Shown: positions 39,971 through 58,865, counted from the stretch's first letter. The stretch is DNA of 64,000 bases from Halomarina rubra (GCF_023699475.1 NZ_JALXFV010000003.1:195873-259872); one strand, 5' to 3'. Notes: generated by a model from the sequence alone, not told the origin. Numbers and translations: made by a program.

Positions 39971-41173
39971 TCACTCCGAACCGCGTGGGTCCAACACGTC
40001 GCGCAACGCGTCACCGAGCAGGCCGAGCGACAGCACCGTGATGCCCAGGAAGATGGCCGGAATCGTCGCTATCCACCACGCCTCGGTGAACGTCGTCCAG
40101 CGGAGGATGGCCCCGATGGAGCCGCCGGCGATGAGGTCGCCGTAGGAGGGTAGGGTCGTCTTCGAGAGCCGGAGGAACGACAGCGCCGCCTCCGCGAGGA
40201 TGATAGCCGGAACCTGGAGCGTCGTCGCGGTGACGATGGTCCCCGAGATGTTCGGCAGGAGGTGGCGACGGACGACCTGGAAGTGGCTCGCGCCGGCCGA
40301 CCGCGCCGCCATGGCGTACATCTCCTCGCGACGCTGGATGACCTCCGAGCGGACCATCCGGGCGACCCCACCCCACGAGAACAGTCCGAAGATGACGACG
40401 ACGAGGAACAGCGAGCGTCCCCAGAGGAAGATGGCGATGATGTAGACGAGGAACGCGGGAATCGCCTGCTGGACGTCGACGTAGCGCATCAGCACGTCGT
40501 CGACCCAGCCGCCGACGTAGCCCGCGACGGTGCCGACGGCGGTGGCGATGGGGACGATGATGGCGGCGGCAATGACGGCCACCTGGAGGGTGATGCGCAT
40601 CGCCATGATGATCATGAGGAGGACGTCCTTGCCCTCGTAGGTCGTCCCCAGCGGGTGGGCCATGGTGCCGAAACACCGCGAGAGGAACTTCGGACCGACG
40701 CAGGTGTTCGGCGTCCGCGCGTCGATGGTGAACAGCACCGGCGGCTGGAAGGCGATCTCCTTCTGGATGACCGGCGAGCCGAGGATGATAGGCCCGAACA
40801 GACCGAGCAGGAAGAAGACGGCGAGGTAGGCGGCCGCGGCGCTCCCGAGGCGGTCCGCACGGAGCCGTCGCCAGTACTGACGCGCCCGGTCGGGGTTCTG
40901 CGCCAGCGGAATCACGACGTTGACGGCGAGCAGACCGAGCGCGATGAGGAACAGCCAGTCGGTCCGAGAGATGGGCCAGGTGAGCTCCAGCATCCCGCCC
41001 GACGGCGGGATGAGGTCGTCACTCGGCGGGAGGACGTACGTCTCGTAGACGAACGCCGCCAACCCGACGACGAGTACGGTGAGCGTCGCCTTCCCCTGCA
41101 GTCCAAGCCGCTTGCGAGACGCCTCCGTCTCCCAGTCGATGTTCTCGAAACGGTCCTCGGTATCCGTCGACAT
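39971..41173 (-). CDS. ABC transporter permease, DppC/OppC type
   Basis: A 400-residue permease with eight hydrophobic segments, longer than the usual 300: two extra helices near residues 28-90 precede the normal DppC domain, which begins with Arg-Arg-Leu-Arg-Ala-Asp-Arg-Leu-Gly-Ser. The permease signature is Arg-Ser-Ala-Gly-Ala-Ser-His-Phe-Gln-Val-Val-Arg-Arg-His-Leu-Leu-Pro-Asn, the EAA loop that docks the ATPase. A Cys-containing outer loop (FTIDARTPNTCVGPKF... Cys near 158 and 167) is unusual. It pairs with a DppB partner to import peptides or similar solutes. Divergent from the dppB trio. Confidence 0.92.
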   Translation of the reverse strand: MSTDTEDRFENIDWETEASRKRLGLQGKATLTVLVVGLAAFVYETYVLPPSDDLIPPSGGMLELTWPISRTDWLFLIALGLLAVNVVIPLAQNPDRARQYWRRLRADRLGSAAAAYLAVFFLLGLFGPIILGSPVIQKEIAFQPPVLFTIDARTPNTCVGPKFLSRCFGTMAHPLGTTYEGKDVLLMIIMAMRITLQVAVIAAAIIVPIATAVGTVAGYVGGWVDDVLMRYVDVQQAIPAFLVYIIAIFLWGRSLFLVVVIFGLFSWGGVARMVRSEVIQRREEMYAMAARSAGASHFQVVRRHLLPNISGTIVTATTLQVPAIILAEAALSFLRLSKTTLPSYGDLIAGGSIGAILRWTTFTEAWWIATIPAIFLGITVLSLGLLGDALRDVLDPRGSE

Positions 41174-41303
41174 CGGTGTCTGTCACGTTCGTGCACACTA
41201 CGGGGTTAAGGTCTGTCGGTTGAGTGAAACCGCCGTTTCAGCGATACGTCGGTTATTCGTCGTGTGGCGGCCGCCGTGGAGGTATGCTCGGAGGTGACAC
41301 CCG
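41174..41303. promoter_or_regulatory. divergent dppC/dppB1 control region
   Basis: A 130-nt region between dppC and dppB1. On the minus strand, a TATA-like cttaaccccg lies about 33 nt before the dppC ATG. On the plus strand sits the palindrome TGAAAC-N4-GTTTCA at 41225-41240 and its TATA-like element. One palindrome between two divergent genes could control both. Confidence 0.5.
41225..41257 (+). promoter_or_regulatory. promoter/operator of dppB1: TGAAAC palindrome plus TATA
   Basis: The inverted repeat TGAAAC (41225-41230) CGCC GTTTCA (41235-41240) is centred at 41232.5. The TATA-like GGTTATTCG begins about 20 nt beyond that centre, and the ATG lies 71.5 nt beyond it. The same geometry occurs before the other two DppB genes. 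The palindrome lies upstream of the TATA box, the place where archaeal activators usually bind. Confidence 0.65.
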
Positions 41304-41319
41304 ATGGCGCGGTGGCTGA
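41284..41319 (+). CDS. possible 11-residue leader ORF overlapping dppB1
   Basis: A start codon ATG at 41284 lies about 30 nt after the TATA-like element, where a leaderless message would begin. It reads MLGGDTRWRGG and stops at TGA inside dppB1. Equivalent ORFs exist before dppB2 and dppB3. A Shine-Dalgarno GGAGGTGA (41290-41297) inside it serves the dppB1 ATG, so the ORF may be only a by-product of conserved leader DNA. Confidence 0.25.
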   Translation: MLGGDTRWRGG

Positions 41320-42386
41320 CCGCGCTCCGACGGGTGGCGTTCGCCGTCCTCGCCCTGTGGCTCGTCGTCTCCGCGACGTGGCTGGTCATCAACGTGACCC
41401 GCGACCCGAACGTCGCCGTGATCCGTAACTCCGTCGCCGACGACCCCGAGACGGAGGTGAACGAAGTCGAACGGGCGGTCCGCGAGTACCGCGAACGCCG
41501 GGGGAAGGTCGGCCCGCTCCACGAACGCTACGTGGCGTGGCTCGGCGACTTCGCGACGCTCGACTGGGGTGACTCCTACAGTCTGGTGCGCGGACCGGGC
41601 GGCCGCCCGATGGAGGCCTCGACGTCCACGGTCGTCGGTGGACCCGGAGACGGCCCGGAGCGACTGTCGGTGACCGACGCGCTGGCGTACGGCCTGCCGA
41701 AGACGCTCCAGTACGTCGTCCCGTCGATACTCCTGGCGGTCGGCATCGGCGTCGCGGTCGGCACGTACGCCGCGCTCGTCCCGACGTCACGCGGGGCGCG
41801 CCTCGTCTCACAGGTCGCGTACTTCGGCGGCGGCCTGCCGAACTTCTACCTCGCCGTGGCGCTTCCCGTCCTCCTCGCCATCCCGCTCGACCTCCTCGGC
41901 TCCGACCTCACCCAGACCGTCGGAACGGGTCTGCAACAGACCGTCTTCGTCGGTAGTATCGGCCCGTTCGGCATCAACACGACCATCCTCCCCGTCTTCG
42001 TGCTGACGCTGGGCCTGCTCGGGAGCCAGGTCCGCTACGCGCGGACGGAGGCCCTGGAGTACGCCCAACGGGACTTCGTGCGCCTCGTTCGGGCGAAGGG
42101 TGCGGGACCGCTCCGCCTCGCCCGTCACGTCCTGCGGAACGCCGCGCTCCCCCTCATCGCACTGTTCGTCAGCGAGGTCCTGGCCGTGCTGTTCGTCGAG
42201 GTGTTCGTCATCGAGTACGTGTTCGGCGTCCCCGGCATCGGGTCGATGGCGTACACCGCCGTCTTCGACCGGGACTTCCCGCTCGTCGTCGGCATCACGG
42301 CGGTCGTCGTCGCCGTGGGGCTGTTCGGAACGCTGTTGCAGGACCTCGCGGCCCTCTACCTCGACCCACGGGTGGGAGACGACTGA
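41304..42386 (+). CDS. ABC transporter permease, DppB type, copy 1
   Basis: A 360-residue permease with six hydrophobic helices. It starts MARWLTALRRVAFAVLALWLV; the Shine-Dalgarno GGAGGTGA ends about 7 nt before the ATG. The outer loop between helices 1 and 2 (about 30-125) is unusually long and contains a Gly/Pro/Thr-rich insert near 94-116 absent from its paralogues. The EAA loop with Glu-Tyr-Ala-Gln-Arg-Asp-Phe-Val-Arg-Leu-Val-Arg-Ala-Lys-Gly-Ala-Gly is near 251-267. It is first of three tandem paralogues; no binding protein or ATPase lies beside it. Confidence 0.93.
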   Translation: MARWLTALRRVAFAVLALWLVVSATWLVINVTRDPNVAVIRNSVADDPETEVNEVERAVREYRERRGKVGPLHERYVAWLGDFATLDWGDSYSLVRGPGGRPMEASTSTVVGGPGDGPERLSVTDALAYGLPKTLQYVVPSILLAVGIGVAVGTYAALVPTSRGARLVSQVAYFGGGLPNFYLAVALPVLLAIPLDLLGSDLTQTVGTGLQQTVFVGSIGPFGINTTILPVFVLTLGLLGSQVRYARTEALEYAQRDFVRLVRAKGAGPLRLARHVLRNAALPLIALFVSEVLAVLFVEVFVIEYVFGVPGIGSMAYTAVFDRDFPLVVGITAVVVAVGLFGTLLQDLAALYLDPRVGDD

Positions 42387-42423
42387 CCGGTCGCGCGCGC
42401 GTCGAGAGGCGCGTTCGAGTCTG

Positions 42424-42457
42424 TGAAACGACCGTTTCAGCCACACATCGGTTATTT
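42424..42457 (+). promoter_or_regulatory. promoter/operator of dppB2: TGAAAC palindrome plus TATA
   Basis: TGAAAC (42424-42429) GACC GTTTCA (42434-42439) is centred at 42431.5. The TATA-like GTTATTTG begins about 20 nt beyond that centre and the GTG start codon lies 70.5 nt beyond it. It sits in the 115-nt gap after dppB1, so dppB2 has its own promoter. Confidence 0.65.
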
Positions 42458-42481
42458 GACCCGTCCAGGTCGCTTCGTACC

Positions 42482-42517
42482 ATGTTCGGAGGCGACGCTA
42501 CGTGGCGCGGTGGCTGA
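42482..42517 (+). CDS. possible 11-residue leader ORF overlapping dppB2
   Basis: An ATG at 42482, 30 nt beyond the TATA-like element, opens MFGGDATWRGG and ends with TGA inside dppB2. It matches the dppB1 leader ORF in position, length and most residues. The conserved DNA includes a Shine-Dalgarno-like GGAGGCGA for dppB2, so the peptide itself may not matter. Confidence 0.25.
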   Translation: MFGGDATWRGG

Positions 42518-43539
42518 CCGCCCTCCGTCACGTCGCGTTCGCGGTGGTGGCCGCGCTGGTGGTCGTCTCGCTCGCCTGGCTGGCCCTGAACGCGACCCGC
42601 GACCCGAACGTCGCCGAGATTCGCCACTTCATGGCACAGGGTGGGGCGTCGGACGCCGAGATACGACGAGCGGTCCGGGAGTACCTCGAACGCCGTGGTC
42701 GGTTCGCCCCACTCCACGAGCGCTACGTGGCGTGGCTCGGCGACTTCCTCACGCTCGACTGGGGGACCTCCTACAGTCTGACGACGGCCGGTCCGAACGG
42801 CGGGCGCGTCCCACTGCCGGTGACCGACGCGCTGGCGAACGGCCTGTCGAACACGCTCCGGTACGTCGTCCCCTCGATACTGCTGGCGGTCGGCATCGGC
42901 GTCGCGGTCGGCACGTACACCGCGTTGGTCCCGGACTCGCGACTCGGCCGGGTCGCTTCGATGGCGGCGTACTTCGGCAGCGGCGTCCCCAACTTCTACC
43001 TCGCCGTCGTCTTGCCCGTCCTCATCGCCATCCCGCTCGACCTCCTCGGCTCGGACGTCACCCGTGTCGTCGACGGTGGGAGGGTTCACGAGACCGTCAT
43101 CGAGGGGGCCGTCGGCCCGTTCGGCATCAACACGACCATCCTCCCCGTCTTCGTGCTCACCCTGGGCCTGCTCGGGAGCCAGGTCCGCTACGCGCGGACG
43201 GAGGTTCTGGAGTACGCCCAGCGGGACTTCGCGCGTCTCGTCCGCGCGAAGGGTGCGGGACCAGTTCGGCTGGCACGCCACGTCCTGCGGAACGCCGCGC
43301 TCCCCCTCGTCGCACTGTTCTCCACCGAGGTGGTGGCGGTGCTCGTCGTCGACGTGTTCGTCCTGGAGTACGTCTTCCCGGTCCGAGGCGTCGGCTCGAT
43401 GGGGGTTCGGGCGATTCTCGACCGAGACTACCCGCTGTTCGTCGGCGTCACGGCGGTCGTCGTCGCCGCCGGCGTGTTCGGAACGCTCCTGCAGGACCTC
43501 GCGGCACTCGTCCTCGACCCGCGAGTCGGGGAGGAGTAG
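42502..43539 (+). CDS. ABC transporter permease, DppB type, copy 2
   Basis: A 345-residue paralogue of copy 1, translated from a GTG at 42502 (MARWLTALRHVAFAVVAALV); no in-frame ATG lies near it. The helices, the EAA loop (Glu-Tyr-Ala-Gln-Arg-Asp-Phe-Ala-Arg-Leu-Val-Arg-Ala-Lys-Gly-Ala-Gly) and the C-terminal Leu-Asp-Pro-Arg-Val-Gly-Glu are nearly identical to copies 1 and 3. The outer loop (about 28-110) is different in sequence and carries a short Gly-Pro-Asn-Gly-Gly-Arg insert. This pattern suggests tandem duplication with divergence of the region that meets the substrate or binding protein. Confidence 0.93.
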   Translation: MARWLTALRHVAFAVVAALVVVSLAWLALNATRDPNVAEIRHFMAQGGASDAEIRRAVREYLERRGRFAPLHERYVAWLGDFLTLDWGTSYSLTTAGPNGGRVPLPVTDALANGLSNTLRYVVPSILLAVGIGVAVGTYTALVPDSRLGRVASMAAYFGSGVPNFYLAVVLPVLIAIPLDLLGSDVTRVVDGGRVHETVIEGAVGPFGINTTILPVFVLTLGLLGSQVRYARTEVLEYAQRDFARLVRAKGAGPVRLARHVLRNAALPLVALFSTEVVAVLVVDVFVLEYVFPVRGVGSMGVRAILDRDYPLFVGVTAVVVAAGVFGTLLQDLAALVLDPRVGEE

Positions 43540-43590
43540 AGCGAGTCGAGCGAACTCGGGCGAAAACTGCGGGCGGCCGTCGACGATGTG

Positions 43591-43626
43591 TGTGAAACGG
43601 TTCTTTCACAGAAACCGAGGCTATTT
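43591..43626 (+). promoter_or_regulatory. promoter/operator of dppB3: TGTGAAA palindrome plus TATA
   Basis: TGTGAAA (43591-43597), six bases, TTTCACA (43604-43610), centred at 43600.5. A TATA-like CTATTTG starts about 21 nt beyond the centre, and the preferred start codon (GTG at 43671) lies 70.5 nt beyond it. Inner arms TGAAAC and CTTTCA correspond to those of the other two promoters. Confidence 0.65.
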
Positions 43627-43650
43627 GTCACATGCGCGGCGTGTCGAACC

Positions 43651-43692
43651 ATGAGCAGAGGTGTCGTCGTGTGTCGCGCTGGCTGCTGGTGA
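43651..43692 (+). CDS. possible 13-residue leader ORF overlapping dppB3
   Basis: The ATG at 43651 lies 30 nt beyond the TATA-like element, as in the other two leaders. It encodes MSRGVVVCRAGCW and ends with TGA inside dppB3. Sequence is less like the other two, but position is conserved. Confidence 0.22.
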   Translation: MSRGVVVCRAGCW

Positions 43693-44657
43693 CTCGTCGT
43701 GTCGTGTTCGCCGTCTGTGTCGTCTGGCTCGTCGTCTCGCTGACGTGGGCGAGTATCGCCCTGACGAGAGACCCGAACGCGGCCGCCGAGCGACGCGCGA
43801 TCAACACCAACGACCAGTTGAGCGACGCGGAGAAAGAGGCTGCGCTGGAGCGACTCGAAGACGGCGGCGAACCCGCACTCGACCGCTATCTCGACTGGGC
43901 GGGCGACTTCGCGACGCTGGAGTGGGGGTACGCGAACAGTCTCCAGCGGTACGACGAGAACCGCCAACCGGTCAGAGTCACGGTCACCGACGCGCTCGCA
44001 CGCGGTCTCCCCAACACGCTCCGATACGTCGTCCCGGCCATCCTACTGGCGGTCGCACTCGGCTGGGCCATCGGCGTCTACGCCGCGCTCTCTCCCGGTT
44101 CCCGGGCCGCACGGGTCGCGTCGATGACCGCCTACTTCGGCGGTGGGTTCCCGAACTTCTACCTCGCGGTGCTCGTCCCCGTCGTGGTGTCGATTCCGCT
44201 GAACCTGCTGGGCCACGAGCTACCCCGGACGCTCGGTCCGCTCGGCGTCCAGACGACGCTCCTCCCCGTGTTCGTGTTGACGCTGGGACTCGTCGGCGGA
44301 CAGATTCGCTACGCGCGAACGGAGGCCCTGGAGTACGCCCGCGAGGACTTCGTACGCCTCGTCCGGGCGAAGGGCGCGGGGCCGACTCGCCTCGCCCGTC
44401 ACGTCCTGCGGAACGCCGCGCTCCCCCTCATCGCGCTGTTCTTCACCGAGGTGCTGGCGGTGCTCGTCGTCGACGTGTTCGTCCTGGAGTACGTCTTCCC
44501 CATCGGCGGCATCGGCTCGATGGCGCTGACGGGAATCCAGAGCCGCGACCTCCCGCTCATCGTCGGTATCACGACGGTCATCGTCGCCGCCGGCGTGTTC
44601 GGAACGCTCCTGCAAGACCTCTCGCACCACTACCTCGACCCGCGAGTCGGGGAGTAG
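43671..44657 (+). CDS. ABC transporter permease, DppB type, copy 3
   Basis: A 328-residue paralogue, best started at the GTG at 43671 (VSRWLLVTRRVVFAVCVVWL), which aligns with the starts of copies 1 and 2. An upstream in-frame ATG at 43632 sits only 10 nt after the TATA-like element and would be off the message. The core helices and the EAA loop (Glu-Tyr-Ala-Arg-Glu-Asp-Phe-Val-Arg-Leu-Val-Arg-Ala-Lys-Gly-Ala-Gly) match its paralogues; the outer loop differs again (Ala-Asn-Ser-Leu-Gln-Arg-Tyr-Asp-Glu-Asn-Arg-Gln-Pro-Val). Confidence 0.9.
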   Translation: MSRWLLVTRRVVFAVCVVWLVVSLTWASIALTRDPNAAAERRAINTNDQLSDAEKEAALERLEDGGEPALDRYLDWAGDFATLEWGYANSLQRYDENRQPVRVTVTDALARGLPNTLRYVVPAILLAVALGWAIGVYAALSPGSRAARVASMTAYFGGGFPNFYLAVLVPVVVSIPLNLLGHELPRTLGPLGVQTTLLPVFVLTLGLVGGQIRYARTEALEYAREDFVRLVRAKGAGPTRLARHVLRNAALPLIALFFTEVLAVLVVDVFVLEYVFPIGGIGSMALTGIQSRDLPLIVGITTVIVAAGVFGTLLQDLSHHYLDPRVGE

Positions 44658-58282: not shown

Positions 58283-58750
58283 CTAATCTGTCCTGTCGAA
58301 GCGGTGGTACGGGTGGAAGAAGTCGTTGCGGATGAGGTCCTCGTCGACGATTTCGAACCCGAGGTCGTTCAGCTCCCGGCCGATTTGGCTCAAGTCGTCG
58401 CCGTCGACGCCGACGACGCCGATGTGGACGTTCTCGGTGCCGGTCATCACCTCCCGGACGGAGACGACCCCCTCGATGTCGAGTGCCCGTCGAGCGAGTT
58501 GCTCGCGTTCGGGAATCGGCGCGGTGCAGACGATGAGGGTGTACAACTGGTAGCCCGCACGTTCGTAGTCCACGTCGGCGTGGTAGCCACGGATGATGCC
58601 CTCGCGTTCGAGTCGTGCGATGCGGTTTCGAACGGTGCTCGCGGAGACGTCGGTCTTCTCGGCGATGTCGGACGACGACGTGTGACGGGCCTCCGCCTGG
58701 AGCGCGTGGATGATGGTTCTGTCGAGGTCGTCGAGGTCCGTCTCTGTCAT
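58283..58750 (-). CDS. Lrp/AsnC-family transcription regulator
   Basis: A 155-residue regulator starting MTETDLDDLDRTIIHALQAE at the ATG at 58750. Residues 5-55 form the HTH domain, with Ala-Ser-Thr-Val-Arg-Asn-Arg-Ile-Ala-Arg-Leu-Glu as recognition helix. Residues 65-145 form the RAM/AsnC ligand-binding fold, ending with Gly-Thr-Glu-Asn-Val-His-Ile-Gly-Val-Val-Gly. It lies directly upstream of the TrkA-N and APC-Usp genes on the same strand, so it may control the operon in response to an amino acid. DNA targets are not known. Confidence 0.9.
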   Translation of the reverse strand: MTETDLDDLDRTIIHALQAEARHTSSSDIAEKTDVSASTVRNRIARLEREGIIRGYHADVDYERAGYQLYTLIVCTAPIPEREQLARRALDIEGVVSVREVMTGTENVHIGVVGVDGDDLSQIGRELNDLGFEIVDEDLIRNDFFHPYHRFDRTD

Positions 58751-58865
58751 ACAGGTTCCAACGGCCAACGAGCGAAATAACCCCCCGGTCGGAACAGCAG
58801 GGACACACCGACAAACGAGACGGGAGTGAGAGCGAAGCGCAGAACGAGAGGTGAGAACGAGGCGA

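Follow-up and report, generated by a model that had tools for sequence, protein, structure and literature searches.

The regulators ArnR and ArnR1 of Sulfolobus acidocaldarius are one-component proteins composed of an N-terminal HTH domain and two C-terminal membrane helices, and under nutrient limitation they act on inverted repeats located upstream of the BRE of surface-structure genes (PMC6396743). The GvpE upstream activating sequences of haloarchaeal gas-vesicle promoters are two-part elements of about 20 nt with an unimportant 4-nt centre (8-N4-8), found near the BRE of gvpA and gvpD. Their distance to the BRE matters, and they can serve divergent promoters (PMC4390858). A third element, SPS1, is present in the promoter of the halolysin gene sptA of Natrinema sp. 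J7-2; it is a semi-palindromic positive element, GAAAT-N7-ATTTC, located upstream of the TATA box (PMC6085418). Here we describe a palindrome from a 64,000-nt stretch of Halomarina rubra DNA (the window) that shares features with all three. It resembles the GvpE elements in geometry, as judged by layout and not by sequence, and it resembles SPS1 in being semi-palindromic and upstream of a haloarchaeal TATA box. GvpE is a leucine zipper-like protein rather than a winged helix and controls gas-vesicle genes, of which there was no sign among the operator targets that we identified, while SPS1 has another sequence and spacer, a single protease gene as target and no known regulator. ArnR boxes are paired TCGAC-N5-GTCGA repeats, in contrast to the one TGAAAC-N4-GTTTCA found per promoter here. 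The candidate binder proposed below, a member of the HVO_1552_C family (PF24267), is predicted to have an N-terminal HTH and two membrane helices in a layout similar to that of ArnR; ArnR has HAMP and sensor domains that the HVO_1552-type layout does not have, and its targets are the archaellum and pili.

The locus includes four DppB/DppC-type permease genes, one dppC-type gene on the minus strand (39971-41173) and, divergent from it, three dppB genes on the plus strand: dppB1 (41304-42386), dppB2 (42502-43539) and dppB3 (43671-44657). The BPD_transp_1 domain (PF00528) was identified in the four products with 80.6, 80.5, 88.8 and 103.4 bits (cut-off 26.4), and the dppC-type product also showed a weak OppC_N match. 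A Shine-Dalgarno-like sequence, GGAGGTGA, lies just 5′ of dppB1, and dppB2 starts with GTG. A mechanical list of open reading frames places the start of dppB3 at ATG 43632; GTG 43671, the start assumed in the first-pass annotation, is favoured because the N-terminal alignment with relatives and the position of the promoter agree with it. The eight PF00496 (family-5) substrate-binding protein genes of the genome are all outside the window, and neither dppD nor dppF was found among the predicted genes beside the permeases. Since the permeases at 39971-44657 are thus orphans, with no binding protein or ATPase genes nearby, the substrate of the dppC/dppB products is uncertain. In four Halomarina, the orphan permeases share a conserved neighbourhood that includes genes for pyruvate kinase, a zinc-type alcohol dehydrogenase and a CobW-like protein.

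Each dppB gene is preceded by an inverted repeat at the position given in the first-pass annotation. The core palindromes are TGAAACCGCCGTTTCA (41225-41240) before dppB1 and TGAAACGACCGTTTCA (42424-42439) before dppB2, both exact matches, and TGTGAAACGGTTCTTTCACA (43591-43610) before dppB3; the last has the form TGTGAAA-N6-TTTCACA and carries one mismatch with respect to the strict motif TGAAAC-N4-GTTTCA. As extended palindromes, to which no strand was assigned, the putative operators 1, 2 and 3 occupy 41221-41244 (between the divergent dppC and dppB1), 42420-42443 and 43589-43612. The plus-strand TATA-like elements TTATTC (41253-41258), TTATTT (42452-42457) and CTATTT (43621-43626) all begin 20.5 nt from the operator centre, within the 20-21 nt described at first, and the distances from centre to start codon are the previously noted 71.5 nt for dppB1, 70.5 nt for dppB2 and 70.5 nt for dppB3. 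The exact motif occurs only twice in the whole 4.07-Mb genome, both times at these operators, and shuffling the window sequence 60 times with dinucleotides preserved gave no match; a chance origin is therefore excluded. When the window was scored with a 24-nt matrix, whose training sites include the three window operators, the scores were 29.9, 27.0 and 21.3 for operators 1 to 3. The highest score at any other position of the window was 11.8 and the maximum in ten shuffles was 10.8, so the element is absent elsewhere in the window, as the first-pass annotation had it.

The equal spacing had been taken as a sign of function. The spacing is real, but it is not independent evidence, because the three genes are old tandem duplicates (61-73% identical) in which it was inherited and is not convergent. 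In a phylogenetic tree dppB1 and dppB2 form a fully supported pair, and dppB3 groups, with moderate support (93/96), with the single-copy dppB genes of genomes G002 (H. oriensis) and G007. The duplication separating dppB1/dppB2 from dppB3 thus appears to be older than the split of these species. A functionless relic of tandem duplication, which would leave three paralogues with an inherited spacing, is nevertheless a very improbable explanation for the palindromes. Between the upstream regions of the paralogues, the palindrome arms are 94% identical and their five-base cores 100%, and the TATA block is 83% identical, compared to 37% for the upstream flank and 33% for the palindrome centre; in addition, the element is conserved in other species, at dppA of other genera and at unrelated genes. 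The putative operator, which dppB2 and dppB3 carry as duplicate copies, was inherited with the duplications yet retained while its surroundings diverged. Equally improbable is an RNA hairpin such as a transcription terminator between tandem genes. Operators 2 and 3 do lie about 40-55 nt after the stop codons of dppB1 and dppB2, but the stem is not followed by a T-run, operator 1 is located between divergent genes and upstream of a TATA box where neither neighbour need transcribe it, and many related sites are found before unrelated first genes.

Comparison with other Halomarina addressed the possibility, named beforehand as the observation that would count against a transcription-factor site, that orthologous promoters have no palindrome. 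Genomes G001, G002 and G007 each have a single dppB divergent from dppC, with the arrangement seen in the window, and in all three the operator is present between the two genes at the same distance from TATTTG, the G007 copy being weakened (TCAAACCCCGTTTTCA). No such palindrome is present upstream of the dppB relatives that are further removed (L044-L047, about 45% identical). The conservation in G001, G002 and G007 supports the initial proposal of a transcription-factor binding site upstream of the TATA box. Operator 1 also fits the divergent dppC promoter. A candidate TATA-like element of dppC, CCTTAACCCC, is located on the minus strand at 41203-41212, about 21 nt from the operator 1 centre, and the dppC start is 59.5 nt from that centre. 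The model R2 described below matches the minus strand of operator 1 (22.7 bits) and of the H. oriensis operator (18.7 bits), and a distance of about 59 nt separates the dppC start from the operator centre in G002 and G007 as it does in the window; one operator could therefore serve both directions. In a separate observation, 11-codon frames begin at an ATG near the expected transcript start and overlap the dppB start out of frame at 41285-41320 (MLGGDTRWRGG) and 42482-42517 (MFGGDATWRGG). The corresponding ATG in G001 and G002 is in frame with dppB, so the dppB translation start seems to have shifted.

The search of related haloarchaea suggested in the first-pass annotation, upstream of peptide permease genes, recovered operators at dppB in Halomarina and at dppA in other genera. 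The H. rubra genome has a complete dppABCDF operon (C10:480-489 kb) with an operator upstream of dppA, and the same was found in all seven Halomarina having this operon, H. rubra included. The dppA orthologues of two Halorarius species, Halocatena marina and genome G054 also carry it. These operators, some of them degenerate, are located 165-209 nt before the dppA start, and their TATA-like element is spaced almost as it is at dppB; given the distance to the dppA start, they may serve a distal promoter. A separate collection of named genomes gave 67 loci that were not part of the hand-aligned training set, and 8 of them scored at least 12 (Halocatena pleomorpha, strain YIM A00010, two Halogranum species, three Halobium salinum loci and a second Halorarius gene), compared to none of 67 coding controls, and many other dppA paralogues and genera in the collection had no operator. 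From these scores, the predicted operator is a conserved feature of one group of dppA genes but not of dppA genes in general. The module described originally as preceding three genes does precede the dppB genes, but the set of operator-bearing genes is wider and includes dppA and probably dppC. At the loci L069-L077, about 100-130 nt before dppA, the upstream regions share GTGTGGACGYATGTCACAC and a proximal promoter-like stretch, ACAACGGCARTTTTATC; because these are shared in addition to the operator, two promoters at dppA are suggested. Divergent from dppA, the same loci have a DUF502 gene and a conserved gene whose product is about 52 residues long. A conserved leader peptide before dppA was considered and rejected, the frame being open in several species and broken in others. 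We regard the palindrome as a real, conserved putative protein-binding site beside the promoter, because the arms and the TATA element are conserved while the surroundings diverged and because it recurs at dppB and dppA elsewhere.

Two further models were used for genome-wide scans. Model R1, derived from 17 dpp sites, matched the H. rubra genome only at dpp loci, namely the three window operators, the dppA operator and, weakly (E about 0.4), one site immediately upstream of each of two other substrate-binding protein genes. Model R2, built from 42 sites of which some were R1 matches, found related sites with E of at most 0.005 in 169 of 392 haloarchaeal genomes of the order, where about 2 genomes would be expected if the E-values, which are rough, held. 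In genera other than Halomarina, many of the sites are found about 40-60 nt upstream of genes for secreted proteins or lipoproteins, including SIMPL/DUF541, serpin, VWA, PQQ-repeat, DUF4349, DUF7537 and DUF7490 proteins and Tat-type lipoproteins, and some model matches had no plausible target gene. As for simple motif matches, a one-mismatch match in the H. rubra genome (C14:199042) was discarded as lying inside a permease coding sequence; several exact matches in other species were inside predicted genes and none was at a dppBC locus, the relevant one being that of genome G003, upstream of the dppA operon. The small genomes G057 and G042 (family f9) have unusually many sites (e.g., L147, L152-L159), mostly before secreted-protein or lipoprotein genes, which suggests a larger regulon. 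Another observation concerns an operator-type promoter conserved in many genera (L200:1990-2130, L202:2295-2560, L205:2570-2740) that drives no evident protein gene. A phosphoesterase gene adjoins it, and a gene for a threonine aldolase or an HVO_1552-type regulator is close by. The short region after this promoter may encode a small RNA, since no protein gene is evident and a GCTTCGG-C-CCTCC-like sequence is shared. An Rfam search of this region gave no match, and the haloarchaeal small RNA s479, which is encoded between a CRISPR locus and a cas gene, was for that reason dismissed as the product.

The first clue to a binder was a site adjoining a PF24267 (HVO_1552_C) regulator gene, and several more sites coincide with genes of this family, which is present in 52 of the 59 genomes searched. 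The flanks of 54 family genes were scanned, 32 of them taken regardless of operator (L294-L305, L351-L370). Twenty of these 32 are flanked by a site scoring at least 14, centred 49-74 nt before the start in 8 cases and within 100 nt after the stop in 12; one of the 20 (L298) belonged to the matrix training set. Genes neighbouring the regulators have these sites in common with them and so make a poor control; 393 background genes were used instead. Among these, all upstream scores of at least 14 were at dpp loci, and downstream 9 of 460 reached that value, most of them being dpp operators picked up from an adjacent gene. Each of the eight Halomarina has one family member with a related palindrome centred about 51 nt ahead of its start (in G001 it was read by eye, as the matrix prefers a site at -116). 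In H. rubra this palindrome is AGCATCAAAACTCCGTTTGAGCCT, upstream of G000:C15:437167-438066, with a matrix score of only 9.8. The product of this gene is above the Pfam cut-off (PF24267, 29.0 bits, cut-off 27; HTH_20, 46.9 bits). A paralogue, G000:C1:163227-163814, reaches 45.2 bits for PF24267 and has no convincing operator in its flanks. In the family alignment a conserved ArsR-like winged helix is followed by two hydrophobic segments, the second at the C-terminus, which are separated by a variable loop rich in small residues. In a simple hydropathy scan of the C15 protein the second segment was clear (2.61) and the first borderline (1.75). Judged by sequence, the closest proteins of known structure are regulators of the ArsR family. 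Paralogues of 202-207 residues (L331, L333-L337, L348, L369) have upstream regions without a TGAAA/TCAAA operator; what these promoters have in common is CCGCAAATATTTGTA or a near variant of it, which may be another operator or a core element.

Looking for a co-occurring regulator, as had been recommended, thus yielded a candidate: because related palindromes adjoin its genes, the HVO_1552-type family is the likely binder, and the C15 gene is the best candidate in H. rubra. We infer the link between regulator and dpp operators from motif similarity and gene association. Regulator genes usually have TCAAA as the half-site and dpp genes TGAAA, and specificity may accordingly differ between the two kinds of site. 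This one-base difference, together with the many winged-helix regulators of haloarchaea and an Lrp-type gene in the window (58283-58768), leaves room for a genuine operator recognized by another dimeric regulator of the ArsR, MarR or Lrp type, the HVO_1552-type genes merely carrying a similar site for their own control. We consider this unlikely: the sites flanking regulators and those of the dpp type share the N6 core, the CCTACG-like stretch that follows and the TATA spacing, the regulator operator of G003 consists of one half-site of each kind, and no other regulator family was repeatedly found beside the operator. The literature searched, with most subscription journals outside coverage, contained no paper naming HVO_1552 and no description of a function, target or operator for PF24267. 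Nor did it contain a haloarchaeal operator of this sequence, in line with the first-pass annotation, although this is weak evidence of absence.

We propose that a dimeric HVO_1552-type winged-helix regulator would bind the 24-nt palindrome just upstream of a weak TATA box and probably recruit the basal factors TFB/TBP, switching on peptide-transport genes; operator 1 would probably serve both dppC and dppB1. The predicted protein, with an N-terminal cytoplasmic ArsR-like winged helix and a variable loop enclosed by two membrane helices at the C-terminus, would be a membrane-tethered one-component regulator that may sense the state of the envelope or of nutrients. We infer binding, activation rather than repression, and the signal sensed. 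ArsR-type winged-helix proteins are often repressors, and this general knowledge, with an operator edge only 12-13 nt from the TATA element such that a dimer could cover the BRE, argues for a repressor site at which the bound dimer blocks access of TFB/TBP and the genes are on when it leaves. The TATA elements fit the haloarchaeal TTWT motif and the consensus of the BRE positions does not include CGAAA, both motifs as described in PMC4983044. Such a BRE, as expected of activator-dependent promoters, and a centre-to-TATA distance kept at about 20-21 nt speak against repression, as do the archaeal analogues of similar geometry, the GvpE elements and ArnR boxes, which are activating; repression is somewhat unlikely. 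The explanation as a whole, an operator for an HVO_1552-type membrane-tethered winged-helix regulator that probably activates peptide-transport genes, is in our judgement reasonably probable on the sequence evidence.

Few archaeal operators have been tied to a regulator family, and these observations offer a candidate DNA site and candidate targets for PF24267, a widespread, uncharacterised family of probable membrane-bound regulators. They make a signalling route from the membrane to the promoter in archaea directly testable, and they explain how joint control could extend to peptide-transport genes at scattered places in the genome. More tentatively, and with somewhat less than even confidence, we suggest that haloarchaea may share a regulon of membrane-tethered winged-helix regulators that pass a signal from the envelope or on nutrients directly to a palindromic element of the promoter. 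In some lineages this regulon would govern peptide uptake; in others its targets would be lipoproteins, secreted proteins and perhaps a small RNA. If true, this would be an archaeal counterpart of bacterial envelope-response systems.
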